DNA of 64,000 bases from the NCBI GenBank assembly GCA_963920765.1, contig OY987252.1, positions 2,713,966 through 2,777,965 of the forward strand, read 5' to 3'. The DNA comes from Ulota crispa. Taxonomy: Eukaryota > Streptophyta > Bryopsida > Orthotrichales > Orthotrichaceae. This document shows positions 5,130 to 60,889 of this stretch, piece by piece. Both the position numbers and the translations under genes were made by a program. The first letter of the stretch is position 1; each line of letters begins with the position of its first letter. The notes below the pieces were generated by a model, which was not told the origin of the DNA, searched no databases, and saw only the letters and a program-made list of their open reading frames with translations.

Positions 5130-5575
5130 CAAAACAAAAAATGGCCATTTTTGCTCTATTGAAGACACTTGAATTGATGAAATTTCTTTTTTGGAGAAGT
5201 TTGTTTTCTTTCTCCAATGCTTAACCAAAGGATGCCCACTTTGAGAGCATGTGGAAGGCAGAGAATTCACAATTTCTTAGAATCCACAAATCCAACTTAT
5301 GCTCTATGATGAATAACTTCCCTGATTTGTGGCATGATATTTTCTTTTTTGGACCCAAAATAATACTAAAACCCCCAAAATGGCCAAGGTAGACACCTAT
5401 TCAAGGCTATTTTAAAATAGTAAAATGATTTTTTTTTAAATTGCAAAAATTACTAAAGGTCTGTAACTATGACATGTACCTTTTTCTGAAATTTCAGCTC
5501 AAAAGAGCTTGCTGAGCAAAAGTTACAAGCTAAAAAACACCTCCAAGAGTGCAAGGAGACAAACTAGTACAAGTG
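5130..5575 (-). repeat. Dispersed repeat R1, copy a
   Basis: This segment is the reverse complement of 51,870-52,325 over about 400 bp with moderate divergence. Shared words include AAAATGGCCAAGGTAGACACC, TTTGGACCCAAAATA and GACATGTACCTTT. Copies lie in opposite orientation about 46 kb apart. I see no coding sequence or clear terminal repeat, so the class is unknown (MITE or SINE-like). Confidence 0.65.
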
Positions 5576-11419: not shown

Positions 11420-11935
11420 TCATAGTTGCATCTTTTTGTTTGCGTCCCATATGCAATGAGTCGTTGCCTTGTGTTGTGTCATGTATTTTGTGCAAAACCC
11501 CAATGCCTCTTCCATGCGATAGCCTTTTGCTATGCTCCCTTTTGGATGAGCGTAAGATCTAATGTAGTCCTTCAAGGTCTTCAAGTATTGTTCAATGGGA
11601 TACATCCACTTGCAATGGATAGGACCGCAGATAAACAACTGCTCCACAAGATGCATGGGGAGGTGTATCATGATGTTCAACAATGTTGGTGGAAACTCCT
11701 TCTCTAAAATGCAAGTTGCAGTAACAATGTTCTTCATGAGCTCTTCTTTGCTGTCCTCTTGCACCTCTTTGTTGCATAACCTCTGAAATACCCGACACAA
11801 CTTTATGATTGCCAGCCGCACCACTTTGTCTAGAAGGTTTCTAATTGCCACAAGAAGTACCTGCAAATGACAAGTTCTCGTAGTGTGATTGTCTGCCAAA
11901 TGTGATGCATTACTAAACATTAATAACAAGACCAT
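11420..11935 (-). CDS. DUF4218 segment of the TNP2 protein
   Basis: The 171-residue open frame contains LLNIMIHLPMHLVEQLFICG, PIHCKWMYPIEQYLKTLKDY, IRSYAHPKGSIAKGYRMEEA and LGFCTKYM. This is the hallmark of DUF4218 in plant CACTA transposases (HL-HLVEE--GPVH-RWMYP-ER). It is the longest uninterrupted frame of the element. A fragment at 11,265-11,495 in another frame (VWNNFGNKYYQDLVN) continues the protein. Confidence 0.88.
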   Translation of the reverse strand: MVLLLMFSNASHLADNHTTRTCHLQVLLVAIRNLLDKVVRLAIIKLCRVFQRLCNKEVQEDSKEELMKNIVTATCILEKEFPPTLLNIMIHLPMHLVEQLFICGPIHCKWMYPIEQYLKTLKDYIRSYAHPKGSIAKGYRMEEALGFCTKYMTQHKATTHCIWDANKKMQL

Positions 11936-12960
11936 GTCATGTACAATGAGTAGTTCTTGTTAATTTGCACATTCAATATAACCTCCTCTACTTCCAAGCA
12001 CGTCAATTGCATTCCATTTTGACATGTTCCAAACATCACTATTGAGTATTAGATGTCTTATTCATATAAATCAAGCCGTCCATTCACACATACATTACTT
12101 TTGCATATGCAAGTATGGACATGAAATGGAATGCTAGGAGGTAGTACATGTTTACTTGTTGCATGAAAATGTGGTAGTCATGCGTCTTCATGTATTGAAG
12201 TTTTTTGTCCTTGAGTCTCTTTTGAATACAACCTACATACTTTGAGGGTGTACGGATGTTTGACACTATCTGCGCAAACTCCTTTTGCTCACCTGGCTTT
12301 AAAATATACAAGGCCCATGGCATGCAGAAACGATCTCTTTAACAATGCACCCATAACTCTTTTTGGATTCCCAAGTCCTCCAAGTCTTGTTGACTTCCTA
12401 GGCTATCATTCATGCCTAATAGAGTCTTCAAAATGTTCTCGCATAAGTTCTTTTCACATTGCATGACATCTAATGTGTGTCAAACCAACAAGTGCTGTCA
12501 ACATGAAATGGATGCTTTTGAATACCATTAAACAATATAGGAACGTCCATTTTGATGTACGGATATTCAGTCAAACATTTCTTCCAATATGACATTGTAC
12601 CCTATGAAAACAGTGCACGACCTTACTGTTGTTTTAGACAACCTACAAAACATCTACTATAACTAGGAGATGTTCTCTTTCATATCGATATGCACATACA
12701 AAATTTGTGCAGTCTAAGGTGACAAATAAAATGACTTGAATGGGCAATTGCAAAGACAAACTACATGCACATCCAATTACTCTAACATTTACTTTGACGT
12801 CTGACCCAATGCCTATTACATTTTAATTGACATTGACTGGAATAGTCACTTCTTTAATTCATATTGTTTGTTTGGCAATGAAGAGCACGTGCGTGAGGGT
12901 TTAGGATTCTCCATCCACACACCTGCCAGTACAGTAGTTCATAGAATGCACTCATTCATT

Positions 12961-15249: not shown

Positions 15250-16790
15250 CACGTCCTAAAACAAACCAAGAATTTATCAAACTAGAATGAGAAAATAGCC
15301 CTAGCACATCGACAGAACTTAGCAATCAATCAACAAACCCAATTTTTATCAATTTCAAGTGAGAAAATAGCCAAAACACAAGTCCAAAACTTAGCAATCA
15401 AACAAATACAAAAATCAGAGCTTAAATTTTAGAAAATCATCTTGCAGCCCCTAACAAAGCCCAATTTTTATCAAACTAGAATGAGAAAATAGCCATACAC
15501 AAGGCCAAAACTTGGCATTCAATCAAATACCAGATCAAAGCTTAAACTTCAGAAAATTACCTTGCGGCCTCTAACTAAAACAAATTTTATCAAACCCAAA
15601 TGACAAAATAGCCCTAACACTAGACAAAACTTAGCAATCAATCAACAAACTTAGATTTTTTTCAATTTCAAATGAGATAATAGCCCTACACAAAGGCCAC
15701 AACTTAGGAGTCAAATAAATATAAAAATCAGAGCTTAAAATTAAAAAAATTACCTTGACAATCCCTAACAAAACCCAATTTCTATCAATTTTGAATTAGA
15801 AAATAGCCAAACATAAGGCTAGAACTTAGCATTCAATCAAATATCAAATCAGAGCTTAAATTTCAGAAAATTACCTTGCAGCCCCTAACTAACCCAATTA
15901 TTATCAAACTCAAATGACCAAATATCCCTAACACATGGCTAGAACTTAGGAATCAATCAAATACCAAATCAAAGCTTAGATTTCACAAAATTACCTTGAT
16001 AGGCCCTAACTAGAACATTTTTTTATCAAACTTGATTGACCAAATACCCCTAATAGTGGACAAAACTTAGCAATCAGTCAATGAACCCAAATTTTTTCAA
16101 ACTCAAATGAGAAAATAGCCCTACACAAAGGCCAGAACTTGGCAATCAAACAAATACCAAATTAGAGCTTAAAACTAAGAAAATCACCTTGCAGCAGCCC
16201 CTAACTAAAACAATTTTTATCAAACTCAAATTAGAAAATAGCCATACACAAGGCTAGAACTTAGCATTCAATCAAATTCCAAATTAGAGCTTAAATTTCA
16301 AAAAATCACCTTGACAGCCCCTAACTAACCCAAATTTTATCCACTTTGAATGAGAAAATAGCCAAAACACAAGGCTTGACCTTAGCAATCAAACAAATAC
16401 TAAATCAAAGCTTAAAATTCAAAAAATCACCTTGCTGCCACTAACTAAAACAATTTTCATCAAACTCAATTGAGAAAATAGCCAAAATACATGGACAAAA
16501 CCTAGCAATCAATCAAAAACCAAAATTGCTAACAACATCTTACAGCCCTAATCCCTCCTCATTCCATCACAAATTCAAAATTCATTAATTCCAAATGAGA
16601 GAATGCACCTAACTCATGGACAAAGCATGATTGACTAAAAAAATACCAAAACTCACGCATATGAGTTAAAGCATCCCGCAAGCCCATAGAGAAGCCTTCA
16701 TTTGACCAAATCAATGAAGAACATACTCTAACACGTGCACACAATCTACCAATAAAATCAAATACCAAAAACTAGTGATTAAAATTCCTC
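15250..16790 (-). repeat. Higher-order tandem array HOR-L in CACTA-1
   Basis: Read on the minus strand, each unit carries CAAGGTGATTTTCTGA-like, AAGCTCTGATTT, TTGATTGCTAAGTT and CTATTTTCTCATTTG words. The AAGGT anchor falls near 15,440, 15,556, 15,752, 15,873, 15,992, 16,186, 16,307 and 16,428. This gives spacings of about 119, 196, 121, 119, 194, 121 and 121 bp. Three subunits therefore make a higher-order period of about 436 bp. The array lies just upstream of the TNP2 coding start, probably in its 5' intron or leader. Confidence 0.85.
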
Positions 16791-18894: not shown

Positions 18895-19830
18895 TGTAAT
18901 TTTGCTATTTCCTCCTTTGAGTTTGAAAAAATTTGAGTTTGTTGACTACTGTCAAGGTGATTTTCTGAGTTTTAAGCTCTGATTTCTGTATTTGTTTGAT
19001 TGCCAAGTTTTGGCCTTTGTATAGGGCTATTTTCTCATTCAAATTTGAAAAAATTTGGGTTTGTTGATTAATTGCTAAGTTTTGTCCAATGTTAGGGGTA
19101 TTTGGTCATTTGATTTTGATAAAAAATGTTTTATTTAGAGCATATCAAGGTAATTTTGTGAAACCTAAGCTTTGATTTGGTATTTGATTGATTCCTAAGT
19201 TTTGGCCATGTATTAGGGGTATTTGGTCATTTGAGTTTGATAAAAAATGTTTTAGTTAGAGGCCGCAAGGTAATTTTTTGAATTTTAAGCTTTGATTTTG
19301 GTGTTTGTTTGATTGCTAAGTTCAAGCCTTGTGTATGGCTATTTTCTCATTCAAAATTGAAAAAAATGGGTCCATTAGGGGCTGTCAAGGTGATTATATG
19401 AATTTTAAGCTTTGATTTCTGTATTTGTTTGATTGCCAACTTCTAGCCTTTGTATAGGGCTATTTTCTCATTTGAAATTGAAAAAAATTTGGGTTCATTG
19501 ACTAATTGCTAAGTTGTGTCTAGTGTTAGGGGTATTTGGCCAATTGATTTTGATAAAAATTTGGGTTAGTTAGGGCCTATCAAGGTAATTTTGTGTAATG
19601 TAAGCTATGATTTGGTATTTGATTGATTCCTAAATTTTGGCCATGTATTAGGGGTATTTGGTCATTTGAGCTTGATAAAAATTGGGTTTGTTAGGGGTTG
19701 CAAGGTACTTTTTTGAAATTGAAGCTCTGATTTTGATATTTGATTAATTGCTAACTTTTGTCCATGTATTAGGGACTATTTTCTCATTTGGAATTGATTA
19801 AAATTGGGTTTGCCAAGGGTTCTAAGGGGA
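18895..19830 (+). repeat. Higher-order tandem array HOR-R in CACTA-1
   Basis: The same units as HOR-L lie in inverted orientation. The CAAGGT anchor falls near 18,953, 19,145, 19,264, 19,384, 19,577 and 19,700, spaced about 192, 119, 120, 193 and 123 bp. The same 190+120+120 higher-order period of about 431 bp results. Relative to its own gene (plus strand) the array has the same sense and place as HOR-L has to TNP2. The most likely setting is the first intron of the TnpA-like gene. Confidence 0.85.
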
Positions 19831-24793: not shown

Positions 24794-25773
24794 CAACAAC
24801 TTTGTTTTTGTCTCCTTTGGAATGCACTCCACATGTTGTAATAATTTCATATGCAGTACTTGCATTATTAACAACATGGACAATTGGTTCAACAAATGGA
24901 GCTGTTGTTACCTGTACTGAGTTGGTCTCTTCAATGGACAAAATCTCTCTAGTTTCGGTCTCTTTAGCGCCTTCTACTACCTCTACAACAACTCCAAGCA
25001 GCTTGTTACTCCCATGCATGATTTTGTCTATTGTGTTTTGTTTCTTTTTCACCATACCTTTTATTATGGAGCATCTTGGCCTCAATTTCTGATGGCTCTG
25101 GAGATCTTCCAAAATCTCTTCTAAGCCACGCACGTCAATCTTCCTGGATGGACCTCTTTGCCCAAAATTGATTTGGTTGGTATTGGCTTTACTGCAATTT
25201 TGTGATTTTTGGATAGTCATGAGATGTAGTGAGTCCTCTATCTGGATACGCCATGTCCAATCTGAAATGTCCGCTAGTTTAGCCTCATTCATTTTTTTTT
25301 TTGTAGATCCGCATGCCAAAGAGTTAAACCTCTTGCAATAACATCTTTCAACATTTTAGACTTTATGGGATTTGAATATTCCCATGTTTGCTTAATCCAT
25401 TTAGAAACCCTTTGCACTTCATTCTCTAATTGTTGATTAATGCTACCTATTGTTGGGCCTAGACTCATGGACAAAAACATCAAATCTTTTTTCCATTTTG
25501 AAACTCTTCCATCATAGGATATTCTAATGTACTCATCAACATGCAATTTGTATCTGGGTAGGCCGGCTTGCCGTCGGCAATCTCCTTCTTTTTCCCTTAA
25601 GGCCCTTGCACGTCTCCTAACCCTACAATGGTTAGCCTGTGTTTCATGGAGGATGTTTGCTACATTAAATAGTTGATCATTTTTGGAATATACACACAGT
25701 CTTCCTTGTACATATCCTTGTTCTCTTCAAAGATGGCACTACGTTCTTCTTCTACACCAAAAACCATATTCAT
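24794..25773 (-). pseudogene. Unknown gene, 5' part of the exon split by CACTA-1
   Basis: Read leftwards from Met at 25,773 (open further upstream), the peptide begins MNMVFGVEEERSAIFEENKD. It continues with HETQANHCRVRRRARALREK, VDEYIRISYDGRVSKWKKDL, SLGPTIGSINQQLENEVQRV and SKWIKQTWEYSNPIKSK, then a Lys/Glu/Val-rich stretch ending GDKNKVV at the insertion site. Two frame changes (near 25,670 and in the A-tract near 25,290) break it. It is hydrophilic and helix-prone, a possible coiled coil. I do not recognise the family. It has the same orientation as the DUF7869 gene to the right and may belong to the same element. Confidence 0.6.
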
Positions 25774-26655
25774 TAAAATGGGAGCTTTGGAACTTCTCAA
25801 ATTAACACCATCTAGATATTAACCCTTAAATCAGAATAAAAACTTTAGGTATAGGATCAGTTTAATTAAATTTGAGTGAAAGTGACTTGAAATTTCCATT
25901 AAAATGAGAGTATCTATTCCTAAGATTGCTTGTACCAACTACTGTTCAATGTAATGACAATGATTTTGTATATATTGGATATTGTGTGTTCTATTGAATG
26001 CCAAGTTATGAGCAGAGTGGTAGGTTGGAAGGAGCTATTTATATCCATTAGGTGGTCCAAATTTGATTCTTGTTGAACTTGTACAAGCGTCTAGTACTAG
26101 AGATTCATAACTTGGTGCTGCTAAGTGAGCCTTGCAGGCAAGAAAGTTGTAACAACCAACCAACCCCCTAAAACAGTGACAAGTGCTTATTGTGCTAACA
26201 AGACAAAAAGTGGTCTTGTTCACCACCAATTTTATTAATTATAGTTAATTAAAAAGTCAATCATATATTGTCAAACAAATTGAAAATGATGTATGTTTTT
26301 GGCACAAAAAATATTCAAAAAATATAAAAAACATAATTATAGTGATAACAACGTATTGTCATTTGCTTTGCAATGCAAATATACACTTCATCTGTATTTT
26401 CCATAATTAATATATTAAATCAAATCAAAAAACCCAGTTTATGTCATTTACAAAATGAGTTGCTATATACAATTGCTTGAGTAGCAAAACATTTCAATGA
26501 AAAAGTACATTCAATAAAAACTATGAAAAGAAACTATAACTAACAAAGAAACTTCTCTCTTATTTGCATGTCAATTAGAACTATATGAAGCCAAGCTTCC
26601 ATTTATTACATCTATTTGTGCTGATGGGATTTTGATGACACATTCAACAGTGTCC
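25774..26655. other. AT-rich spacer between the interrupted gene and the DUF7869 gene
   Basis: No protein-like frame or shared repeat recognised. Confidence 0.4.
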
Positions 26656-26659
26656 TTTT

Positions 26660-29408
26660 TAACTTTAGACTTCCAATACAATCATGAGAGTACTTGCTTC
26701 TTTCCAAATAGGATCTTGAGTCTTGTCCACTCTCTAACGCAGTCCTTTGACAGAGTCCCATCCAGTGTAATATTCTTGAACATTCACCTCTCGTATGGTA
26801 GGACAAAAGTATTGAATGAATACACAAGTAGGGTGTTTTGGGTTACTATAAGGATCAGATAAAACTCTAGCAATCCACGCAGGCCTTATATCATCATCTG
26901 CTAGTTGAATTGCAAGGAAATAGCCTTCATAAACATCATGTGCCACACAAAATGACTGCTGCGGACAATTGCATAGTGTGCCCACATAGGTTTCATCCTT
27001 AGCAAACTCTTCACAAATCTCACCATCTTTTGAACTAATTGGTCATCATTAGACTCCTCTAGTCAAGTCAAGGGTCAGAAGCTATCATTCAACAAAGTAC
27101 TTGGTTCAATTGGCTCTTGCAATGTTGCTTTCACTGCCCGCCAATAAAATATCAAATGCTTGTGGTGTCGCCGATACTCATTGCTTGTATCTTTGTTGCT
27201 CAATGTTTCCCAGTAATTGATAAACCCAGACAATCCTCTCAAAATTTCTTCTATGCTACGCATTTGAACGTGGGCAATAGGCATTGGCATTTTGCAGCCA
27301 TAAGCTTTGTCCTTGAGAATCCTCTCTCCACAATTTTATTCCTGCACTTTCTTGTGGCAGCCAATCTTCATCACTACAATACTTCATATATTTTATGACT
27401 GGACACCCTATAGAATCTAAGTAAAATTTGAATTGTTGTGCCTTGGTATGGCCAACAAGTGCATTATCACCTTTTAAAAAATGACCTTCTATGAAGGTTT
27501 TGAAATCCGACACTTCTTCAATGAAATGCAGAATCACTGGCATAGGACCCACATCCATGAATGACTTCATGAGAGATGGGATGGTTGGGAAACTGTCTTT
27601 TTTCAAATCCATGTTCCATTTCCCAAACAAAGCATCAATGTTGTCATGTGTGTGTCCTATTAACATAAACCTCACATATGCCTCCCAAAATATATTTTTT
27701 GCAACAAAAAGAGACCAAAAACAAAATACAAATCTATTCTTTTTGTCTCTAGTGGCATTATCCATTCAAATAATTAAAACCGAGGATAAATGGGTGGCTA
27801 GAACTGGTATTGCTGGAGATGGGTGTAGAGAATTTTTGCAAATATCTTTGCCTTCTAATATAGCTTTAAAAAGAGGAATAGATCTAGACCCTACAAATAA
27901 TCTCCTTGACGAGTATTTTGGAAATAGCTCAAGGTCACGCAGAAGTTTTGCAAGTGATCCCAGTGTATAATTTGAGTCGTGAGAATAGATGTCAAGACCG
28001 TAATGCGCATACTGCACATCACCATGCCCATGGGCAATTATACTTGTCATTGGCATCGGCAATTTAAAGAGCCCATCTAATTGCTTGCTCTTGTGTGAAA
28101 ACACGAGAGAAGCAGTTTTCGTATGATCCATTTTGTCATGTATGATTGTCAAAATTTCATGAAGAAAAGCTTTGGATCTATATCGGTTTTAATAATATAG
28201 GTCACAATGTGATTGTGCTAGAGCCAAATGCTTGTCTAAAGCATCTTTCCATTTTCTTTTCAGTTGAATACTAGCGTTCCTTTTAAGGGTTTGTAGATGA
28301 TCACATTTTGAGCAGTGCGCAAAATTTTCTCTTGGTTTCTTTGCATTGAGCTCTAGGAAGTTTCTTTTCTGAATCTTTCTGATAATAGAAGGAGAAACTC
28401 CTTTCAACCCAAACACAACATTCACTGCATTAATCTCAAGAATGGTGTCCATCCATTTAAATGTAGCTGACAAAACCCTAGAAACTACTTTCTCACCCAA
28501 AAGTACAATCCAACTTTTGTGAGGCATATGGTCTACTGACTTGTCTAGCATGCACCTCAAAGTTGCAGTGGCTTGCAAAGAATGCTTCCTGGTCTTCTGC
28601 ATCCCTACATTGCAATGAGGTTGAGCATGTCCTCCCATTTTTGTGTATCCTTGAAACCGGTGGAATGTAGATTCTGGGACACCAAAAATAAACCTCCATG
28701 CTGCGTGACAAAATGTCGATCCCTTTGATAGTCACGACCTTCTTCCTCTTAGAATTTTGGTGTATTTGCCAGTGAACATCCAACTTCATGTGGTGTCAAA
28801 ATTCAAAAGTCGTCTTGTTGTACATATGCTCTTGGACTGCCTTGATTTTTTCCCTTGGAAACGACTGTATAGAGTTGTTGGAGCAACAGACATTGCTTGA
28901 AACAAGTAGGATTGAATCTTATGTGAGAAGTTTTTTGCCTTTCATAGAAACCTATGGTGTGCAGGAACTCTGATAGAAGTATTGTATGGTCTAGAACCTT
29001 TAGAAGAAGGCTAAGTCTAATTGGCTTACTAAAGATTGTATTCATATCAAACTTTGTGATCTCAAAAACTTGTACCATTCAAATAAACCCTCACAATTGG
29101 CCAAGCAAACATGGAGTATTTCCATTCCTCTGAAATGTGGGCAACAAACAAACTCTTGGAAATTTGGACTGCGACTTTGGATCACCCAGAGGTCCACTAC
29201 TTCCAACAGCAGCATCAAAGCTAACACTGTAATATATGCCTTTGGCAACAGATACACCAAACTCATTCTGAAAGATGACAACTCTTGTAATCCAATAATG
29301 TCAAGGAACACCTTTGCAATCAAGTATCTTAGAAATATCCATTGGCACACTCTGGATGATATCCTCATCAGAGGAGTACGCCATTCCTAGCGCAGATGAG
29401 GTGCTCAT
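26660..29408 (-). pseudogene. DUF7869-family gene (mobile-element protein, decayed)
   Basis: A TTTGCAG acceptor precedes ATG at 29,408 (MSTSSALGMAYSSDED). The middle contains KPRENFAHCSKCDHLQTLKR (about 28,330), and then IHDKMDHTKTASLVFSHKSK and HGHGDVQYAHYGLDIYSHDS (27,766-28,152). After that come MDNATRDKKNRFVFCFWSLF, FMLIGHTHDNIDALFGKWNM and the downstream acidic helix (27,256-27,765). DKMDH, the Asp of MDN, and the GHTHDNID motif match DUF7869. Such genes are, to my knowledge, multi-copy in non-seed plants and some animals and are presumed element-encoded. The C-terminal part (26,660-26,985) is in another frame. Several stops and frame changes are present. Exact function is unknown. Confidence 0.75.
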
Positions 29409-30420
29409 ATCCTGCAAATGAAAAAATTTCATGTCATCAAAAGTCCAAAGTGAAGAATTCAAACATATTCATGTCATTGAGTATTGAAGTGTCAATCAGA
29501 CCCATGATTAAACTTGACTTGAGTTAATTTGATGTGAGCGATACTGCAGTTAAATCCAGATAGAATTTAATTTTGCGAAGTCTTACAATTAATGATTATT
29601 GTATTGAATTAGACTATAGTGATATTCACGTGTAAGCCTGACACTAGTTCCAAAAAGGATACTTACACAATAGATTGTATCAATTAATGAACCTCACATT
29701 CAACTTGACTTGAGTTAAATAGGTCCGTGAAATGACAAAATTCAACTCAAATGGATTAGATTGATACAAATGGTCAATACCCACAGAAAACACAAAATTT
29801 GGTTTAATCAATTTAGAGTGTTACATATGATTTTGGAGATGGCTAAAAAATTACATTTCTAGATAACCTTCTGACACAATGAACCACATAATCAACTCGA
29901 CTCAAGTTAAATTGGTCCCTTATATGCTAGAATGCTACTTGGACAAATCTAAGTAATTAAAATGCTTAACACTAAGTTTATCATCACTTTGAAATATAAA
30001 ATTCTTAGATTATTACATGGCATTTCATAGGTGGTGTGTCTGATATGTACTTAGATTATACTCTGACGTGATTGTCAAACTTAGTTTAATTCAACTTGAG
30101 TTAAATTAAAGCTTTAGAACTAAATATGATTTGGATGAGAGAATGACAATGTTTGTTGGTAATGGATGCAATTAATAGCTAGTTTGGTTATCATTATTCA
30201 TATCAAAGGGTTAACTTAACTCAAATCTAGCTAAATAGTTATTATAGCGCAGTATAAATATCTTCTGATGTGTCTCGCAATTTCATATGATGCATTCAAT
30301 CATATTCATTCCACTACCGTAATTCTCCATAGCAGATTTCCATTGGTAGTTCAACTCAAATTGAGTTGAACTGCTTCATGTGCATTGGCATCATTATTTC
30401 AAAACCCAATCAGTATAAAG
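29409..30420. repeat. Palindrome cluster upstream of the DUF7869 gene
   Basis: Imperfect palindromes built from AACTCAA and TTGAGTT occur at about 29,514, 29,700, 29,738, 29,896, 30,088, 30,210 and 30,349. The best, AACTCAAATTGAGTTGAA, is near 30,351. The same motif family surrounds and enters the gene at 52.6-57.8 kb. It may be the binding site of an element protein. No coding sequence is visible. Confidence 0.75.
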
Positions 30421-50560: not shown

Positions 50561-51869
50561 ATTGTGGCCACGTTTGCAAAATGTGGCTCTAGAAGGGGTC
50601 TGGATTGCTTATGTTCCAAATAACTCTCAAAAAAATCTCATTCAACCTAACCCTAATTTAATCCCATAGTGCAAAATTCAACCCTTTCCAATGATTTTTA
50701 AAGAAACCAACAAATAACTTTCAAAAAACACGTTTGCCATTATGTGACTTCTATAAGTGGCCTCTACTAACTTTAATTACAATGTATGATTATCAGGGTT
50801 GGACAATTTCAAATCACACTTGGAAAAGTATTGAGCGGCCTAGATTTGATGAAATCAAGTTTGGCAAGCGCTGGTATTTCTAGTTGAGGGTTGGGCATCT
50901 CTCTTAGGTTTGGGGTAGCTTTGGCTATTTACGTTTGATTCAAGTGTTGGAGGTCGTCACTCTTGTTCTAGCATGCTGTTGCTTTTTCACCTGTCGCGTG
51001 TGAACTTTGTTGAGCAATTTGTTGAAGCTTTGGGAGGTTTAGGGTTTCTTGTTCATGCGTCGTAGTACAGTGCAATTGGTTGTTTCCTTTGTCGCATGTG
51101 AATTTTTGTGAGTGCTTTCTGTCAACTTTGGCAGATTTGGAGTTTCTTGTTCAAGCAAAGTTGTACATTTCTGTTTGCAAGGGTTGAGGGTTGAAACTTG
51201 CCATTTGGGAGGTCAGTGATTGTAAATCTTCAGTTTTGGAAGGGCGTTGACTCCTTTTCAGAGGTGGGACTTCTCTTGTCTTCACTGTACGTTTGTTGGT
51301 GTTGCAACTTGGTTGCGGTTTTGTGACATGGATTAGTTGCTGAAGAGTTGCTGTGGATACACGTCGCTGCACCACCATTGATATTGAAGAACTCGGCCAA
51401 TCCTCTGTCTTTCTTGCAAGTTAATTTCAATATTCCAAGATTGTTTTTGTTTCCATCTTTGTGTAGGTTTACTTGTAATTTTAGTAGCTGAGTTTTTGTT
51501 GTGGTTTTCTCTATTTCCAGAGCGAATGTTTTGTGCGTTCTACAAAATGCATCTACACCTCCGTTATTCTTGTCTTTGTAACAAAATTTGTACTTGAAGG
51601 TTTTGTAATTTAGTTCAAGGTATGTGATTTCAATGTGTTCTCAGAAATTGTGCCCAAAATTTCATGAATTACGTTTACATAGAAGTTGGAATAGTAACTT
51701 CAGAATTAAAGGAATTGAAAAATACCTTTATGATAAGTTCATTTGTTTGTTATGTTCCACAGTATGCATAATTACAAAACATTGCACACTATATTATGTT
51801 CATTTATGATACAGATAGGATTGCAAGGTAGAGGGTGATTCCAAGAAACTCTTGTACTATTTTCTGTCC
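50561..51869. other. Spacer with an old ~95-bp tandem duplication
   Basis: TGTCGC(G/A)TGTGAA and G(G/A)GTTTCTTGTTCA words recur at about 50,990-51,060 and 51,088-51,155, offset by 92-98 bp. The region 50.9-51.45 kb is GC-richer than its flanks and could be a transcribed leader, but no coding frame is convincing. Confidence 0.4.
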
Positions 51870-52325
51870 CCTTCACCTTCTGTAGGTGCTTTTTGGCTTG
51901 TAACTTTTGCGCAACAAGTTCTTTTGAGCTGAAATTTCAAAGGAAGGTACATGTCATAGTTATAGACCTTTAGTAAATTTTATAGTTTTTTAAAAATTAT
52001 TTTACTATTTTTAAATAGGCCCCAAATAGGTGTCTACCTTGGCCATTGTGGGGGGTTTTTAGTACTATTTTGGGTCCAAAAAAGCAAATCTCATGCCACA
52101 AATCAAGGAATTTGTTCATCATAGAGCATTACATGGATGCGTAGAAGGATTTCACAAAATTCTAAATTCCATGCCATGTACACTGACTCAAAAAGGACAT
52201 CCTATCTCCCTGCCTAGGGGATAGGCAAAATATTAATCAAAAATTGGTTTACATGAGGCAATGGATTAGTAGTAGCTCAAAAAGGACCATTTTTTGTTTT
52301 ATTTTTTTGAAGTTTTCTACTATTT
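51870..52325 (+). repeat. Dispersed repeat R1, copy b
   Basis: Inverted partner of 5,130-5,575. Shared words are AAGGTACATGTCATAGTTAT, AGGTGTCTACCTTGGCCATT, TATTTTGGGTCCAAAAAA and CATGCCACAAATCA. Confidence 0.65.
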
Positions 52326-52559
52326 TCTAAAAAGAAAAAAAGAAATCGTCTTTTTGGCTGTAATTTTTGTCCCTTTATTTTTGTGTATAACTTTTAGAAT
52401 AAATTTGTTCTAGGTCTGAATTTTCACAAGCATGCTATTTTAAATGCTTTACAAATTGTCCATAATTTATTTTATTTTAAAAAAATTATTCCAAAAGCTT
52501 GGTAGTACTACTAGTACTACAAGTACTAAGGGTGTTCAAGACAAAATAGTGAAGTGTTT

Positions 52560-53350
52560 CTCAAAATCACCCTAGAAAAGGGTGTTCTCAATTTCACTCA
52601 ACGTTAATTTAGCTTGACATCAATTTAACTTGATGCTAGTTTAACTCAATAGCAAGCAAAAAGTGCTCTAAACTTCATTACATTTAACTCAAATTGAGTT
52701 GAAATCTTGGAAAACAAGCCAATGTACACTAATAATTAATAAATAATAATTGTTGTAAGAGAAAAGACGTAATATTCTTTAGTTAAATCCTAGTAAGCAG
52801 ACATGATCTCAATAATTCAACTTGACTCAAGTTAAACCATTAACATAAAATACTAGATATCGCCCATTTGGCTACTTATTTGGCAATGGCAAGCATTGTA
52901 ATTTAACTCAACTCGAGTTAAACACAAAGAGCATAACATAAAAAACCTCCTCTTAACATCAATGATTGTTACCAACAAAGCAACTCCTCATGGACATATA
53001 TAAGCAGCTCCATACAGCAGAACTCTGACATCAGCATCTTCGTAAAAGTCTAGAGTTCAAAAATTGACAACAAGGTTTAACTCAAATTGAGTTATATAAT
53101 GCGCTAGGGATCTGCACAAATGGATCTCACTTCCTTCAAATATAATGCAACTGCGTCAAACCACCTACATAAAATAGAGGCATTTGTAATGAGTGATATG
53201 TGTCATATTTTGAGTTCTATTCATCAAGGCAATGCTTAGTTAGCATTTTCTATTGCTACTCGTAGTTAGAAACTTATTGACCCATGACAACTGTATTACA
53301 TAACATCCTGCAATACTTTAACTCAAATCAAGTTGAATTTGACATCTCTT
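52560..53350 (+). promoter_or_regulatory. Palindrome cluster and likely promoter of the 53-60 kb gene
   Basis: AACTCAA/TTGAGTT palindromes lie at about 52,612-52,650, 52,681, 52,818, 52,902, 53,077 and 53,320. The best is AACTCAACTCGAGTTAAA near 52,905. A TATATAAG box lies at about 52,998-53,005, roughly 365 bp before the first Met, so a leader intron or long 5' UTR is implied. The motif family is the same as at 29.5-30.4 kb. The TATA call rests on sequence only. Confidence 0.6.
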
Positions 53351-53365
53351 GCTCTTTGTGCAGCA

Positions 53366-54399
53366 ATGGAGGAACAAATGACCAAACCTGAGGTTTATTA
53401 CAGCAAGCTCAACTTATCAAAGGAAGAAGCTGCTAATTACGGTGATGACGATGTTGTCAATCATATCTAGGAACTGAAGGAGCTTGAAGATGTAGAGTAC
53501 TGGACGCTGATGCTTGTCCCTATGAGCAGCAAGCTCAGCTTTATGATGCAGTTCAGGAATTGTGAAGCAACTTTGCCAATTTCACTACACAAGAAGGTGA
53601 CACTCGTAAGCAATGGACCAGGTGATGTGGTCCTCATCTCATGCACCACCACCGACCTAGATCATGATGCAAAGTATGTAGTTTCATTTGCCATTCACAG
53701 CTGTCAAACAATGTTCTCTATGTCAGCCTACTACAACAGCCTGACAAACTCTCAGTTCTCAAACCTGCAAGTTGAACTAGACAAACTCATCTAGAAGAAG
53801 CACTTGGAGTCCAAAGATAAAGAGTCGCTACCAGCTAAATCATTATAAACAAGGTGCAATGCCCTTGTTAGTGTCTTCTAGAAATCCAAGGTCTTACAAG
53901 CTAAGAAGATGAAGAACATGCAGCCCGTAACCCTTGCCTGCATCTATAGCAGTTATGGTGCTAGTCGTGGCTCGCTAGTCATGGAGACTCCAATGATGGG
54001 GCAAAGTCGCACCAAGAAGAAGACGTGACCCGTGGACAGAAGAGGGATTCCCTCTTTGGCTCTAGCATTGACCTTGAGGGCCAGAGGAAAAGCAACCAAG
54101 AAACCAAAAGAGCTGCCGTTGGAACAAGAGAATAGCATGGTCTTGAAGATTGATAATCTTCCCAAGGACATTGGCGGGGAACACCAGGATATTGACTTTG
54201 AAGCTACAAGGCGTACGAGGAGTATTGGGCAGCCTGCATAGATTCCTACATCCCAATTGTGGAAGATAAATTCTTCCTCAACATCGACCAGCTCAAGACC
54301 CCGCCGGAAAACCTCAACATCCAGGTACTTGAAGAGGCGAGCATGAAGAAGGCATTGAATTTCTTGTTCAACATGCCCGATTTGAAGGAGCATATGACG
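53366..54399 (+). CDS. N-terminal part of the 53-60 kb gene, unknown
   Basis: The translation includes LVPMSSKLSFMMQFRNCEAT, then DVVLISCTTTDLDHDAKYVV, a run of Lys/Arg-rich linker (53,880-54,130), and CIDSYIPIVEDKFFLNIDQL then NFLFNMPDLKEHM before the mini-CACTA. At least one frame change lies between 54,100 and 54,220. It resembles no family I know. The basic linker suggests nucleic-acid contact or a nuclear signal. Confidence 0.45.
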
Positions 54400-54573
54400 C
54401 ATTAGAAAAAACCTGTGTTTTTTATAATGGATTTTTTTGGACGTCCACTTGTTTTCATGTTAACAATGACATCAAACATAACATCAAGATGTTAGTTTTA
54501 ACATCAATTATAACATAAAAACAATTGAACATTCAAAAAAATCCATTATAAAAAACATGGGTTTCTTCTAGTG
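54400..54573. mobile_element. Mini-CACTA (174 bp) inserted in the 53-60 kb gene
   Basis: The left end is CATTAGAAAAAACCTGTG and the right end, reverse complemented, is CACTAGAAGAAACCCATG. Both continue TTTTTTATAATGGATTTTTT, giving terminal repeats of about 42 bp. Flanking triplets are ACG and AAG, so a target duplication is only approximate. Inside are GACATC/GATGTT words as in CACTA-1. The ends resemble those of CACTA-1 (CACTAAAGAAACCC), so that family could have mobilised it. Confidence 0.85.
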
Positions 54574-54609
54574 AAGTTATGAGCCATGCTCCAAAACTTA
54601 AAAAGCGAG

Positions 54610-54979
54610 GCCCAAATCCTTTGAAGACTTCAAGGATATGAAGTTCTGGATGATCAACGGGCAGCACACTGTGGCGGCATCAAAGAGAATGCAGAACATG
54701 CTGCAAGTGCTCGACAAAGCAAAGATCTGTCAAACATGGGAGTGTTTCATTGTTTGGAACAAGGATGATCAGATCATCCAAAAGATCTCCATATATTACA
54801 ACCGAGTCAATGATTTCCAAAATTTTGCGCCCTCATGGGCAACAAATATTATTGGAGGCCGATTTGTGTGGACAATTCTAGGAAGCCCAACTCCACCAAA
54901 GGGATTTAGACAACTAGGCAACGTTGCAAGCTTATCACAGTCAGCAATAAAAGATGGGTCGCACAAACAAAAATACGCG
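54610..54979 (+). CDS. DGQHR/ParB-like domain segment
   Basis: The open segment reads SFEDFKDMKFWMINGQHTVA, ASKRMQNMLQVLDKAKICQT, WECFIVWNKDDQIIQKISIY and YNRVNDFQNFAPSWATNIIG. INGQHTVAASK matches the core of DGQHR / ParB-Srx-like folds ((D/N)GQHR-hA) with Thr in place of Arg. The hydrophobic strand WECFIVW and the YN-N motif follow as in such domains. In bacteria and phages this fold occurs in DndB-like and ParB-methyltransferase proteins. Here it precedes a splice donor (GCG|GTAAGA). The family call is by eye and tentative. Confidence 0.5.
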
Positions 54980-55130
54980 GTAAGATTCAACTCAACTTGA
55001 GTTAAACATAATTTGGATGCAGTCCTCACTGTTGAAATATGTAGACCCCCCACCATAGTTGCATTCAACTTGACTTGGGTTAAAACATAGCTGTCACTGA
55101 ATGTGTATGCCGTTGCCATATATGTGCAAG
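54980..55130 (+). repeat. Intron 1 with two AACTCAA/TTGAGTT palindromes
   Basis: The donor is GTAAGA and the acceptor lies near 55,130. It contains TTCAACTCAACTTGAGTTAA at about 54,986 and TTCAACTTGACTTGGGTTAA at about 55,063. The minus-strand 237-residue frame over this stretch is a shadow. Confidence 0.7.
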
Positions 55131-56035
55131 AGTTCCACCTTGCAATGACAAATTGTTTTAATTGTATTGACGTCAAAAAGAGCCAAGAGCAGGGGAAGAA
55201 GAGAGACATGGCCATCCACAACGAGATCAAGATCATAACCTCATCAAATCCGGTGTTTGAGTTGTGGAAGGAAGTCATCTGCAGCACCTCCATAGGGGAA
55301 CTAATTGATCCGGAGACTTGTCTTAAGTTGAAAGACAAGAAATTGTAGAACATCAAGAAGGACGGCGTCATCACTCGGGAATTCTTCAAGTGGATGAGGA
55401 ATTGCTTGGAGGACAATTTGAAGAGGCTTGCTCTACACATGCTCAACAGAACCCCAAATTGGAAATTCCCGCATTCCAAGGTCACAATGAAGAAATCTTC
55501 CTGCTGCATCGTAGACTGCTATTCTATGAAGGATTGGCTGGAACAATGTAAGTAAAAGCAGGTAGTGAAACTCCACCTCCACTACCAGAAGCTTGACCTT
55601 TGATTAGTCACACCAAAAGGTACTATCTAGAGGGATGAGTGGAAGGTGTTCAAGGTCAAATACAACGTCACACCAGCCATGACGCACACCCTCCTCACTA
55701 GATCAGTGGAGCTATTCTTTGTTGAGGTGAAGAAGCCCTCAAACAAGTTGAAGACCCTCCACGAACTGTCAAAGTATGCGGAGGAGTTTTTCAAAGTATT
55801 TTTGAAAAGCAAAGGGAGATTTCACAAGCTGGAGGCGACGGCAAAGTACAGGGCGTACAACATGACGGAGGGCCGGCTGGGGGTGTGGTCACCAAATGTA
55901 TGGGACGACTTGTTCCAGTCAACACTCAAGTTTGGGATAATCAACTTCCAAAATATCATGGGCATCATCAACAAGGACCTAACCGTCACTCCCTACTTTA
56001 ACAACTTCTTGGACGAGCTAATCAAGTAAGACCAA
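55131..56035 (+). CDS. Helical middle part of the 53-60 kb gene, unknown
   Basis: Peptides include AMTNCFNCIDVKKSQEQGKK, NPVFELWKEVICSTSIGELI and FFKWMRNCLEDNLKRLALHM (55,131-55,550). The best preserved open frame runs 55,646-56,029: TPAMTHTLLTRSVELFFVEV, LKTLHELSKYAEEFFKVFLK, YNMTEGRLGVWSPNVWDDLF and TPYFNNFLDELIK. It is charged and helix-rich. No family recognised. Confidence 0.5.
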
Positions 56036-56061
56036 CCGTAGTTGGCTGATCCTAAGTCTGG

Positions 56062-56460
56062 TTGTGGATAGCTGGCAATACAAAGACAAAGGCGTATCTA
56101 AGGCAGCACGTCTGGGCGCATAAGTGGACAAAGGATTATACAGTGCAAAATGCAATGTGTTTTCAATGTCCAAACAAGCGTCTGCAAGATATGCCTAAAA
56201 AGAAAGCAAAGAATCATATGCAGTTGTTGTTCTTCATTCAAAACGGCTGTAAATTCAATCCAAAGAGCATTCTAAGAACATTTGTTGCTCCAAATATTGA
56301 CAGGTACAAGAAATTGGGGCTGTACAACAAGTTGATGTTCCGGATGTACAATATGGAGTTGAGGATGGAATTCTACTTGAAGGTTCTTGATTTGTTCAAC
56401 TCAAGTTGACAAGATGTTGTCTCCATCTTTGCAAGAGGAAAGTTCATTTGCATTGCCTGG
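56062..56460 (+). CDS. Segment with possible methyltransferase-like motif
   Basis: The segment reads AKNHMQLLFFIQNGCKFNPK, APNIDRYKKLGLYNKLMFRM and YNMELRMEFYLKVLDLFNSS. After a stop it continues QDVVSIFARGKFICIAW to a donor. After intron 2 comes IKSLNHFVIIDSNQKQRFLE. D-x-F-x-G followed by a hydrophobic strand and then an acidic IDSN-Q recalls motif I of DNA methyltransferases of the N4/N6 type, where a ParB-like domain often sits upstream. A convincing DPPY motif is missing (only LADP near 56,045). Weak assignment. Confidence 0.35.
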
Positions 56461-56701
56461 GTAAGTTTCTTTCAACTCAACTTGAGTTAAAACTTGTAGG
56501 AACTACAACACTCTATACAATATGAATATTTTCTCCCCTATCTCTATAGCTTACTTTCAACTCAATTTGTGTTAAAACTTCTATTAACTACGACGCTCTT
56601 TATAACATGATTTCATTCTCCATTGTCTCTGTAGCTTCCTTTCAATTTGACTTCAGTTAAAATGTCATTAACTAACTACTCCATCCATTGTGTAATTGTA
56701 G
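56461..56701 (+). repeat. Intron 2 with three AACTCAA/TTGAGTT palindromes
   Basis: GTAAGT donor and TTGTAG acceptor, 241 bp. It contains TTCAACTCAACTTGAGTTAA (about 56,473) and the two relics TTCAACTCAATTTGTGTTAA (about 56,554) and TTCAATTTGACTTCAGTTAA (about 56,642). Confidence 0.75.
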
Positions 56702-57707
56702 ATAAAATCCTTAAACCACTTTGTCATTATTGACAGCAATCAGAAGCAGAGATTCCTGGAGCTTGCAGAGGGCTCTGAGCATATGGACAAGGATGATTTC
56801 CTTTAGTCAAAGTATGTCATTGACCAAAGTAAGTATGACATGAAGAGTGGGGTATGGGGTTCCTCCTCATTGGGGAGAAAGAGCAGGAGCAAGGAAAAGG
56901 GCAAGCAAAGGATGTCAAACAAGGAAGAGGAAGAAGAAGAAGAGCCTGCTAAGGAGCTAGATAGAGATAACTACATCAACCTTGACTCTGAGGAGGCAGA
57001 TCACTAGAACGATAGTGCACAGCAGCCATAGCCAGGAACTCCCATAACACCAGTGCCTTCAAGAGTGAAGTCTGATTTTGATGACTCCTCAAGATTGTCC
57101 GAGGAAAATGAAGATCGCTAGATGTCCTCTCGTGAACGCAGCAAGAGAAAATCTAAAGCTCTTGGAAATAGTTCAAACACTGACATTTTTTTGCAGTTTA
57201 TGAAGAAGACAATGAGGAATAACAAGCTCTTAAGAAAGGAGCAGAACAACTTCTTTGAGAACCTCATGAAGTCCCTCCCAATCTTGGTAAATATTGCCGC
57301 AGAAGTGACAATAACAAGAATCATGGGAGAACAGCCCCTCCAATAGTCACTTCTAGCACTGGACGTATTGCCTCCCTTCATGATCAACAACCATGCCCAC
57401 AAGTCAAGGGACAGCACCAGTAGGGATTTGCCAAGAGTTAATACTCGATCGCGCTCCCAAGCAATTGCAAAGTTGGCGCGACCCAAGTCTTCCACCAGTG
57501 TTGTCTCTGTCCACGACTAAGGAAATGCTAACACTCATCACAAGCAGACTGGGACATTCAAGTTTGTGATTAATGAGTAGCCTTTCGATGGGTCTGCCAT
57601 TGAAGCTGCTGCTGTCAGCCTTGTGGGGGAAACTGTAGAAGTGCCTAAAGGAGAAGATGATGATCCCGATGAGCAGTCACATGACCCTGTGACTGTTGAT
57701 TCTCTAG
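56702..57707 (+). CDS. Charged linker segment of the 53-60 kb gene
   Basis: It opens with IKSLNHFVIIDSNQKQRFLE and then becomes rich in Lys, Glu, Ser and Asp. Examples are KEKGKQRMSNKEEEEEEEP, SSRERSKRKSKALGNSSNTD, EQNNFFENLMKSLPILVNIA, SRSQAIAKLARPKSSTSVVS and an acidic end PKGEDDDPDEQSHDP. It probably holds a nuclear localisation signal near 57,125-57,170 and a disordered linker. Glutamine-like positions are often TAG. Confidence 0.45.
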
Positions 57708-57920
57708 GTACTTTCTGGTGAATCTCTGATTGTCATTTCAACTCGAGTCAAGTTGAATGTGCTAGATTTCATTATTTTTGGTTAGCAAAGTGAGGTACAA
57801 AGATTAGGTAGCTAGGATTATGGCAATGTACATTCATGTGAAAAAATTGCTCCTTGTGAGACTTTTAATAAATGCAACTTTTCACAGTATTTTGTACCAT
57901 TAAATTGTCCATATTGGCAG
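57708..57920 (+). repeat. Intron 3 with one palindrome
   Basis: GTACTT donor and TTGGCAG acceptor. It contains TTCAACTCGAGTCAAGTTGA at about 57,738, a palindrome with a CTCGAG centre. After the intron a Ser/Pro/Val-rich exon (57,921-58,252) leads to the phosphatase domain. Confidence 0.7.
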
Positions 57921-58502
57921 GACCACTGGAACTGGAGAATGAGTTGCCCCAAAGTTTCATGGATGCTCTTGACTCTTTCCCCACATCTAGCTTTGCAAAT
58001 GGTTTATCTACATCTGCTGCTCCAGTAGTTTCATTGAGTAGAGTAGATGTTGCCTGTCACGATATTAATGAGTTGAGTGTACATGAACATAGCAGTCCCT
58101 CCAATCATCATGTGGATGTCACATCTGAACAATTTGAGGTTCTAATTGATACAAAAATTCTAGATTCGGAAATTCCACTAATGTTAGCATCCCCTGTGGA
58201 AATTGACAATGTGAATGTATCAATTGCTGTGACTGCGGGGCCATTTGAACGGGTATGATTTCTGTCCCTCCTTGTCTTTGATGGTTTCAATGGGCATGTT
58301 TCACTCTCTTCATGTATGAACTAGTTCTCATAATTGTGCATGGAAACGCATGGAGCTTGTGAGTCTTGTCTAAAAATTGTGAATGGCAATGTTGTTTGAT
58401 TTATGTATGTGCATTCTACTGAATTGGTGAGTAGGGTTTTAGAGGTGAATGAAGCGGTTCATTATTAACTATTCTGGCCACCATGAGACCAAGGTGGCTT
58501 AA

Positions 58503-59232
58503 TGTGATCTTGATCTGAATGGTGTCCTTTGTGCGGTTCAAAATAGGAGATATTTTGTCTTGGAAAACAAATTCAGTGACACTTTTGAAATTTACCCCAA
58601 TCTAGAACGTGATCTACGTTTTGCTGTACGGCAAGTCATTGTTTGGCCACATTGTAGAGAGTTCCTGCAAGAGTTGTACAAAATAGTGTACGTTACAGTT
58701 TGGGCCGACATGCGACGGTCAATAGTAAGATTAATATGCCGAAGGTTGTTCAAAGGCTTACCTCCCCCCATCCACATGCTATGCAAAGAACACTGCAATT
58801 ACTATGCAACTGAGGACTTGGGACCCAAGAGTCAACTGAAGAAGGAGGTCTACATAAAATAACTAGAAGTATTGTATCATCAAAAGGGTTCTAAATTCTC
58901 TCGTGAACATAATAATAATTGATGACTCTTTGTCACACCAAGTGCTAAACCCATCAGAGAATGTGATTCTACCGCCCAAGTGGTTTCCCGAGGGTGATGG
59001 AGTGTATGATAGGTTCTTAGTTGATGATCTTTTGCCTTGGATTCAGCGGCTTGAATCCATGGATAAGCAAAGTTTAGTGGCTTTTAGAAGTTTGGATGAT
59101 ATAGGTGGCAACACCCATGGCTATGAGTCTAACAATTCTGACTACGACAACAATCATGCTGCCATACAGGACATGTATACTTTAATCACTAAATGCTTTA
59201 GTGACCGTGGAGTTTGTATGGTTTATCTCTAA
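58503..59232 (+). CDS. FCP1/NIF-like HAD phosphatase domain
   Basis: The open sequence begins CDLDLNGVLCAVQNRRYFVL (58,503). Then come VIVWPHCREFLQELYKIVYV and TVWADMRRSIVRLICRRLF, followed by TEDLGPKSQLKKEVYIK, ending at 58,862. In another frame it continues IIIIDDSLSHQVLNPSENVI and WFPEGDGVYDRFLVDDLLPW. DLNGVL is the catalytic loop (DxDx(T/V) in FCP1), PH-EFL and VTVWA form motif II, and IDDS--NP the motif IV block. The plant NIF-like group has Asn at the second Asp, as here. Such enzymes dephosphorylate Ser/Thr of protein tails. One frame change is present. It follows the DGQHR-like part in the same strand, apparently captured by the element. Confidence 0.75.
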
Positions 59233-59619
59233 TTTCATGAAGTCTTTTGTAACTCACGGTATTAAGTTCCATGTCTGTTCTGGTGTCAATTTCCTAAGTT
59301 TTGCCCTCATTTCTTGTACATTTCTCTCTTTATAGTCATGATTGTATTATCATTCCTTTCCTTTTGGTGCAATGCTAAAATTATAATCTTTAGAACTAAA
59401 ATGGTTTTTGTTGCTCTCTATGAATGCGTTTTCTATGTTTACATGTATTACGTCTTTGCATTTCTCCTTTAGAGTTAGGTTTTCCTTTATCTTCAACTCA
59501 TTGAGTTTATTGCCTCTACAATTTTGCGGGCTTTACTGATTTGTTCATGGTCTATGCACAGTTTGCTATGTTGCAAAATTGGGTTGGGGCTTTACATGTT
59601 GTTGGCAGCCACTGCACAG

Positions 59620-60226
59620 TCAACAATGGATTTATCCATGATGGATGTGGATGACAATGTCTTTGACAGTCCTTCAAGTGCTAGGACTCGTCCTCTTACT
59701 ATGAGGTCTCCTTTGCCTCTGAAGTGTTGTACTGAAGTGTATTTGCCTTAAACTCTGTTTGGAAAGAGTGGCTTGTCTCAAAAAAGACTTTATGACAAAG
59801 ATGACATTATACTTGTTCCCGCTACCCAGGTAAGTATGAGTGATTTGACTTTTTGAATTTGCAATTCCATTTGTCTTTGTAATTATTGTATGTTGAGAAT
59901 TGCAAACTATATACTAATTTCAATGGTTTGTACAATGCACAAATTTTTTGGCAAAGCTTGGTGCCATCATTCAAAGACGGCCTACATTGTCAAATGATTT
60001 TTAGCCCCCTTTGCCTCGATGTTCTTCTAATGCACCTCCAAAACAATGTTACATGGCTCATAACAAGCATTTGCCCCGATTTATTGGCAAATAACCTAGG
60101 GATGCGTGGGAAGAGAAGCCCTTGAAGATGCAAGTACAAAAAGATATAGGATAGTTTAGAGGAAATTATTATGATTATAGTCGTGGGCCTAAAATTATGA
60201 AGGCTTTCGAAAAGTTGAAGAGATGA
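59620..60226 (+). CDS. C-terminal exons of the 53-60 kb gene
   Basis: An exon from an AG at 59,618-59,619 reads STMDLSMMDVDDNVFDSPSS, ARTRPLTMRSPLPLKCCTEV and, after a stop, FGKSGLSQKRLYDKDDIILV, ending at GTAAGT (59,830). The last exon, from about 59,957, includes AWEEKPLKMQVQKDIG and FRGNYYDYSRGPKIMKAFEK. It is Ser/Pro- and Lys-rich, possibly a tail of the phosphatase protein. Unknown family. Confidence 0.45.
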
Positions 60227-60889
60227 TCACATTTATAATTTCAACATTAATAGATTGGTTACTACCTCCACTATGCTAAAATGTAGTATGGAGTTTGTAC
60301 GTATGTATTAGCTCTATTTTTAGAAGGCAAGTATAGTTCTACAAAAATCTTCAATACCATCATCTTTTGGTCTTTAGTTCCAACATCTATAGTAAATGCT
60401 TTTTCTATATTAGTAAGATTATGTATAACAAGAAATGCATGACATTTGAGATCATCCAATTTTATACCTACTTTTTGAATCAATCCAATGATTCTATTAT
60501 GTTTATGGACAACTCATTCTATGAAATTCATGATGTGTACTACTTTTAGGAACTCTCATATCACTGGAAAACTCTCATTTTAATGAATATGGTGTTACCA
60601 ATGTGATCAACATATTTTGCACTTGGTGTGCTTGAGTACAACCTTGCATGAGATTTCCAATTTGTGTGTCTGTATACAATCTCTTGCATTTCATAATTAA
60701 CATGCACTGACCACTGGTTACATGAAGTGTGAAAACCGTTACATCTTACAATGAATTTTGTACATTGAATATAGACCGTGCATAAAAATAGACTCTCTAT
60801 GAAGATTAAGAAATTGAATGCACAAGATGCAATACAATTCTTTAATATTACAATAACATAACAAAATGGCATATGCAATTGCAATAGGA
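60227..60889. other. AT-rich spacer, nothing recognised
   Basis: No protein-like frame and no terminal repeat of the preceding element were found. Confidence 0.4.

Follow-up and report, generated by a model that had tools for sequence, protein, structure and literature searches.

A decayed giant DNA transposon with two divergent genes and internal palindromes in the genome of Ulota crispa

In the genome of the moss Ulota crispa, a stretch of 64,000 nucleotides (contig OY987252.1, positions 2,713,966 to 2,777,965; hereafter the window, to which all coordinates without a contig name refer) contains an unusual coding locus, in which a motif reminiscent of ParB-type proteins stands on the same strand as an FCP1-like phosphatase domain. 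The question raised by this locus is whether these parts form one mobile unit or are merely neighbours. A sequence-only reading of the window had proposed a single transposon-like unit at 52560–60226 (7.7 kb), surrounded and entered by palindromes. Our data indicate that the region 25760–60596 (34.8 kb) is a giant transposon with terminal inverted repeats (TIRs) and two divergent genes, preserved here as a copy that is old and broken. The right gene holds the parts named above, referred to here as the GQHT segment and the NIF domain; the left gene, which codes for a DUF7869 protein and provides the candidate transposase, was missed by the earlier reading. The bounds of that reading have to be corrected as well: the right end is the TIR at 60596, and the left bound at 52560 falls in a nested high-copy TIR element (51832–52573), the left TIR of the giant element being at 25760.

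The search of the same genome (274.8 Mb in 157 contigs) for better copies, proposed in the earlier reading as the way to find the ends, did define them. The genome also has six SAM_LFY (LEAFY-type) matches, as fits a land plant. Homology between the window and its copies stops at 60596–60603 in five of the seven copies aligned; among the other two, L033 is clipped by its own stretch and L038 has no DNA match. The TIRs (AACACCATATTCATTAAAATGRGAG) are about 25 bp long, and the inverted form of the right one, CTCTCATTTTAATGAATATGGTGTT, at 25760 is its sole other good match in the window. Both TIRs are present in all five copies examined for both ends, namely the window copy and four further large copies of 21.4–27.0 kb, which were checked beside their DUF7869 genes. 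The left ends of the copies on contigs C6, C1 and C11 agree with the motif at 23–24 of 25 bases, while the best of 300 shuffles reached 19. An exact 4-bp target-site duplication flanks three of the five copies (ACCA, TTAT and ACCA), and three of the four bases agree in the other two. The 4 kb upstream of three right-gene copies held no left TIR, and in one of these three the left end was later located beyond the DUF7869 gene. Direct repeats at 50.0–50.5 and 62.0–62.3 kb were ruled out as ends, one copy lying inside the element and one outside.

The same ends are widespread. A degenerate TIR motif has 823 forward and 827 reverse sites in the genome (about 1650), with none for the reversed control, and all 12 inward-facing close pairs examined proved to be short TIR elements of 186–331 bp, with an exact 4-bp duplication in eight, agreement at three of four bases in two and none in two. 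Such short, TIR-only relatives of the giant element occur genome-wide (e.g., L054–L065), and at least two of them overlap or neighbour a site of the palindrome described below.

The relation of the phosphatase part to the element was judged from its neighbours throughout the genome. There were at least 59 matches to GQHT, at least 86 (by profile) or 46 (by protein) to NIF and at least 150 to DUF7869, giving 56, 111 and 136 loci, respectively, after the merging of neighbours. An NIF match lies 1–12 kb downstream on the same strand in 44 of the 56 GQHT loci, against none in either control (opposite strand; upstream). A divergent DUF7869 match is found 5–40 kb upstream in 36 loci, compared with 3 for the same-strand and 4 for the downstream control, and 1000 random placements gave a mean of 1.7 and a maximum of 7. 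Both partners accompany 30 of the 56. The NIF part therefore belongs to the element. The earlier view of one mobile unit with the phosphatase included, which copies lacking that part would have contradicted, is upheld by these counts and by the TIRs enclosing both genes. A second GQHT query, taken from the C8 lineage, gave 66 matches, among them seven new, distant places (24–31% identical), three of them 5–7 kb upstream of same-strand NIF matches; the two-gene plan holds in copies only 24–36% identical in GQHT. The element is dispersed over 11 large contigs. One of these, C11 (6.3 Mb), is enriched, with 2.5 GQHT, 4.0 NIF and 5.1 DUF7869 loci per Mb, whereas none of the other ten exceeds 0.4, 0.7 and 0.8, respectively; C11 may be a small chromosome, a sex chromosome or one that recombines poorly.

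The coding regions have been under purifying selection in the past. The median ratio of non-synonymous to synonymous divergence (dN/dS) was 0.22 for GQHT (13 pairs, range 0.17–0.38), 0.22 for DUF7869 (6 pairs) and 0.53 for NIF (36 pairs, with all 35 of non-zero dS below 1). Only pairs with at least 70 codons and a dS below 1.5 were used, which kept 13 of 66, 6 of 10 and 36 of 66, respectively; the pairs are non-independent, and decay after insertion pushes the values up. The window copy also has a mosaic history, visible in its NIF part (57990–60597) as against GQHT (54602–54997). The dS of the former to three C6 copies is only 0.16, 0.24 and 0.30, far below the 1.34, 0.99 and 1.50 of GQHT to the same copies, which suggests recombination between element lineages.

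The palindromes noticed in the earlier reading are real, and it is only their part in delimiting the unit that has to be given up: they are not the ends, because homology among copies stops at the TIRs and the palindromes lie inside. With up to three mismatches, the palindrome TTTAACTYRANTYRAGTTAAA has 11 matches in the window against 0.02 expected, and with up to five mismatches it has 19, all inside the element. One is by the left TIR, seven are at 29508–30350 and eleven at 52683–57737, most of them being situated 5' of either gene or in non-coding gaps of the right one. The right-gene copies examined hold 5–17 palindromes each, compared with one in 14 control loci (57.7 kb). The whole genome holds 747 sites of the palindrome and 123 of its reversed control. 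Among the best 53 of these 747, 41 have one of the 71 element-gene hits no more than 6 kb away, where 2% would be expected, and at least two of the remaining 12 fall, by position, in or by short TIR elements. The C8 lineage carries a variant of the AGCTCAA/TTGAGCT type. The half-sites AACTCAA, AACTTGA and AACTCGA vary independently of each other, and this variation could be due to CpG decay of AACTCGA. Introns of the right gene (L033–L037; 56461–56703 in the window) contain tandem units of about 78–85 or 120 bp, with one palindrome in each, and in the window these units end like introns.

The left gene is a clear member of the DUF7869 family (PF25273), matched on the minus strand at 27259–27765 (E 4.3e-25) and 27769–28188 (E 1.9e-4). 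In the C8 copy, the frame is open for 607 codons and matches the family at E 3.2e-38. Three acidic motifs, D.MD, DN.T..NKN and HTH.DID, are kept in alignment with the distant DUF7869 proteins of L076 and L077 and may be read as a possible DDD triad; the DUF7869 protein is the probable transposase of the element. The model predicted for a DUF7869 piece from its single sequence (mean pLDDT 43.2) was not used. L076 (C4:3394500-3402500) and L077 (C6:8551500-8557500) represent a second, divergent DUF7869 family with long open frames and an identity of 29–31% to the window query. Conservation between the window copy and that on C8 is confined to the two genes, and similarity in the spacer is limited to short tblastx segments of at most 37 codons.

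In the right gene, the split coding segments read in the sequence lie on one strand and in the order described previously. The motif INGQHTVAASK is indeed there, and the alignment of this segment (11 rows, mean column identity 66%) has the core KFWMINGQHTVAASK. Its assignment to DGQHR/ParB-like proteins stands less firmly: the best match to DUF6551, which we take to be ParB-like, had an E-value of 0.038 (3 of 11 rows), that to a ParB-like PHROG one of 0.1 (2 of 11 rows), and the GQHT profile matched no PDB profile. The segment is thus only possibly ParB-like. A pattern scan of viral contigs gave 57 stretches fitting the GQHT pattern, none of them a relative, and the model predicted for the window segment (mean pLDDT 42.9) was not used. 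In the middle region, a block like ELRMEFYLxVLDxFxSSRDDVVSIFAGGKxICAAW is common to all eight rows, and in six of them the next exon goes on with SLNHFVIID or similar. This is the possible methyltransferase-like motif of the earlier reading, here seen to be conserved; with an altered glycine loop, it resembles that half of permuted N4/N6 methyltransferases which carries motif I. It has no match among the methyltransferase models of Pfam and NCBIfam. Among PDB profiles the top match was to an unrelated reductase at E 0.12, and those to two arginine methyltransferases were at E 0.6–0.8; a six-frame genome search with N6_N4_Mtase (PF01555) gave four weak matches, none over the cut-off.

The FCP1/NIF-like domain is confirmed by PF03031, which passes its curated cut-off at 58503–58859 (23.2 vs. 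21.8 bits) and stays under it at 58867–59229 (17.2 bits). In 17 distinct element-type NIF loci with a readable motif I, six of which had no GQHT or DUF7869 partner in the linkage count, the motif was DLNG in 16 and NLNH in one. Four partnerless loci, presumed to be host genes, read DLDET (two) and DLDHT (two). The element-type domain thus lacks the catalytic DxDx(T/V), Asn replacing the second Asp; the DDS of motif IV is retained in several element copies. Both the methyltransferase-like and the FCP1-like parts are apparently altered at key catalytic residues. As for the question of one gene or two, a single fused GQHT–NIF gene is favoured by the comparison of copies, because no start codon directly before the NIF domain is conserved across them. 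The decay of the window copy is seen in its in-frame stops, in a frameshift read at the start of the NIF domain and in a foldback of about 175 nt, at the place of which relatives hold about 25 bases. The features of the window copy and the other large copies are listed in Table 1.

Table 1. Features of the element in the window, and large copies on other contigs
Feature	Position	Strand	Remarks
Left target-site duplication ACCA	25756–25759	.	read in sequence; equals 60597–60600
Left TIR AAAACCATATTCATTAAAATGGGAG	25760–25784	.	chance expectation, mean 0.01 matches
Left gene, DUF7869 protein, candidate DDD transposase	26615–29411	-	PF25273; 5' extent by tblastx vs. C8 copy; broken, borders approximate; tail towards left TIR
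Left palindrome cluster, 5' side of DUF7869 gene	29508–30370	.	7 matches (at most 5 mismatches), of which two overlap
Spacer	30371–52682	.	no tblastx segment over 37 codons vs. C8 copy; nested repeats inside (e.g., 51832–52573)
Right palindrome cluster, 5' side of right gene	52683–53337	.	5 sites
Right gene, N-terminal coding region from ATG at 53366	53366–54402	+	tblastx conservation with L034–L036; holds stops
Foldback inserted in window copy	54400–54573	.	86-nt arms, 80% complementary
GQHT segment (INGQHTVAASK), possibly ParB/Srx-like	54602–54997	+	59 matches in own genome; dN/dS median 0.22
Palindromes at or after end of GQHT segment	54986–55084	.	2 sites
Conserved middle region, ending in LRMEFYLKVLDLF...SIFARGKFICIAW (methyltransferase-like motif)	55142–56460	+	start approximate
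Intron with three palindromes in ~85-bp tandem units	56461–56703	.	deduced from reading frame and GT...AG
Coding continuation NHFVIIDSNQKQFLELAEGS, then charged linker	56704–57702	+	borders approximate
Palindrome in non-coding gap of right gene	57737–57757	.	
Acidic coding segment ahead of NIF domain	57930–58250	+	borders approximate
FCP1/NIF-like HAD domain with DLNG as motif I and IIIDDS as motif IV	58503–59229	+	PF03031; broken
Right gene, C-terminal region, alike in L034–L036	59581–60226	+	similarity to copies
Right TIR CTCTCATTTTAATGAATATGGTGTT	60572–60596	.	copy homology ends here; motif genome-wide
Right target-site duplication ACCA	60597–60600	.	read in sequence
Large copy	C8:19302-40701		21.4 kb; TTAT/TTAT; ends match TIR motif at 21 and 22 of 25 bases
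Large copy	C6:21794267-21821296		27.0 kb; AAAA/AAAG
Large copy	C1:32349040-32372450		23.4 kb; TGAT/TAAT
Large copy	C11:831032-854763		23.7 kb; ACCA/ACCA; flanks unlike those of window

Several other repeats are present in the window. The nested element at 51832–52573 is 742 bp long, with TIRs of about 22 bp (AGGGTGATT...), and has about 40 copies or more among the matches listed, nearly all at 87–92%; a partial relative of it lies at 5299–5589. A DUF4218 match is located at 11420–11956 on the minus strand (E 6e-30), this domain being one that accompanies CACTA-type plant transposases. Inverted arrays of repeats of about 120 and 440 bp face each other at 15260–16527 and 18904–19812.

We consider it quite probable that the element is a decayed, two-gene giant cut-and-paste DNA transposon with DUF7869 in the role of transposase. 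The DUF7869 protein would be a DDD transposase acting on the TIRs, and the right-gene protein an element-encoded DNA-binding factor whose GQHT part, if ParB-like, would bind the palindromes, the methyltransferase-like and FCP1-like parts serving as binding modules, so that the element might control its own transcription or chromatin. The role proposed here for the right-gene protein, taken alone, is tentative. More doubtful, taken as a whole, is the wider picture of a giant land-plant transposon lineage capable of self-recognition, in which a parS-like palindrome array at both gene starts and in the right-gene introns would be served by a fused ParB-like/pseudo-methyltransferase/trap-type CTD-phosphatase protein, marking or regulating the chromatin or transcription of the very element that encodes it, and in which DUF7869 would be a transposase lineage new as such.

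A number of observations weigh against these interpretations. No divergent DUF7869 match was in range of 20 of the 56 GQHT loci, and 49 of the 111 NIF loci had neither partner; some of the latter are presumed host genes, and the others could be fragments or belong to lineages so divergent that our queries miss them. L067 and L068 have no left TIR in the 4 kb upstream, the only stretch looked at there. The copies are old and mostly broken, and current activity is not shown. In the structure-profile search, no profile tied DUF7869, the candidate transposase, to any solved nuclease. For the right gene, unrelated families equal or beat the ParB-type scores in single GQHT rows (BNIP2, E 0.0054; phrog_5442, E 0.019), and the methyltransferase assignment is a weak one, drawn from motif resemblance. 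The spacer stretches L066–L068 and L074 (19.8 kb) hold no palindrome. Finally, the half-sites do not covary (16 palindromic among 44 pairs; shuffled mean 17.4), so that no compensatory half-site change was seen.

Other explanations of the locus have to be considered in this light. Captured genes ride in some transposons, according to the review literature, and the GQHT–NIF gene might be such a passenger, taken up by an unrelated transposon and having no part in it. The relaxed dN/dS of NIF among closely related copies (0.48–0.86 in the close pairs listed) would agree with this; the constancy of the two-gene plan at such low GQHT identity, the purifying selection on GQHT and the presence of palindromes 5' of each of the two genes speak against it and make cargo improbable in our opinion. 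Far less credible is that the GQHT–NIF and DUF7869 genes are separate repeats inserted together by chance. Their spacing does vary (9–39 kb), and the loci without a DUF7869 neighbour would fit, but a chance association, already disfavoured, does not account for the constant orientation and side or for the single TIR pair around both genes in every copy checked. The large size and the several unusual protein parts could also point to an endogenous remnant of a large DNA virus, an origin to which we give the least credence of all, given that the window and C8 copies have just two conserved genes in common, that the end motifs are so numerous and the close pairs examined proved to be short TIR elements, most of which show 4-bp duplications, and that the pattern-based scan of viral contigs gave no GQHT relative. 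Maverick/Polinton elements make 6-bp target duplications and, like endogenous large DNA viruses, carry polymerase B, capsid and packaging genes. The duplications here are of 4 bp, unlike theirs, and no Pfam match to such genes was found in the left- and right-gene pieces or the six spacer open reading frames scanned.

A much stronger contender, and a real possibility if not the likelier one, is a Sola1 element sensu stricto whose accessory gene is specific to this lineage. The 4-bp duplications, TIRs and three acidic motifs would all fit; Sola elements are known in moss and some exceed 15 kb, according to PMC10741241 and PMC9033089, and a Sola1 element of Ectocarpus has a ParB-like gene on the opposite strand (PMC12477816). 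We have not filed the two-gene transposon with its candidate DUF7869 transposase as Sola, the likeness being one of features.

Placed among known protein families, the right gene shares with the FCP1/SCP phosphatases (NIF, PF03031) a profile match over the cut-off and the DDS of motif IV, and differs in the Asn at the second Asp of motif I; the left gene falls within Pfam DUF7869, here tied to a transposon with defined ends. This uncharacterised domain thereby gains a likely role, as the transposase of elements that have many short relatives. The element would also offer a testable pair of protein and palindrome for transposon self-recognition or self-regulation and, if the weak ParB match holds, extend to a land plant the theme of ParB-like accessory genes in giant algal transposons. 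Our literature searches, in which the palindrome was not searched for, found no NIF fusion in a transposon and no mention of DUF7869. The combination of ParB, Sola and methyltransferase in a DNA transposon was met only in PMC12477816. The earlier statement that no described plant transposon is known with this combination of parts thus holds for NIF within these searches, but an accessory gene with the ParB-like and methyltransferase pair is already in print for a 21.5 kb Sola1 element.

The Sola superfamily is characterised by 4-bp target duplications, a DDD-type transposase and variable TIRs and occurs in the moss Physcomitrella (PMC10741241); most of its elements measure 2–9 kb (PMC10741241; PMC9033089). 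Duplication length and TIRs are common to Sola and our element, whose copies are of 21–35 kb and contain a second conserved gene. The closest precedent is Sola1-1_Ec32 of Ectocarpus, in which, according to PMC12477816, an opposite-strand gene codes for a protein of 1104 aa with ParB-like and DNA methyltransferase domains, and such proteins may bind their own transposon and modify it epigenetically. Both are giant elements with an accessory gene on the strand opposite to the transposase gene, if DUF7869 is taken as such. Whereas the methyltransferase of Sola1-1_Ec32 is recognisable, our element has at most a degenerate one, together with an additional FCP1/NIF-like domain. The likeness between the element of Ectocarpus and that of a land plant is one of plan, and in plan the two are strikingly alike, with the FCP1-like domain as the extra part here.

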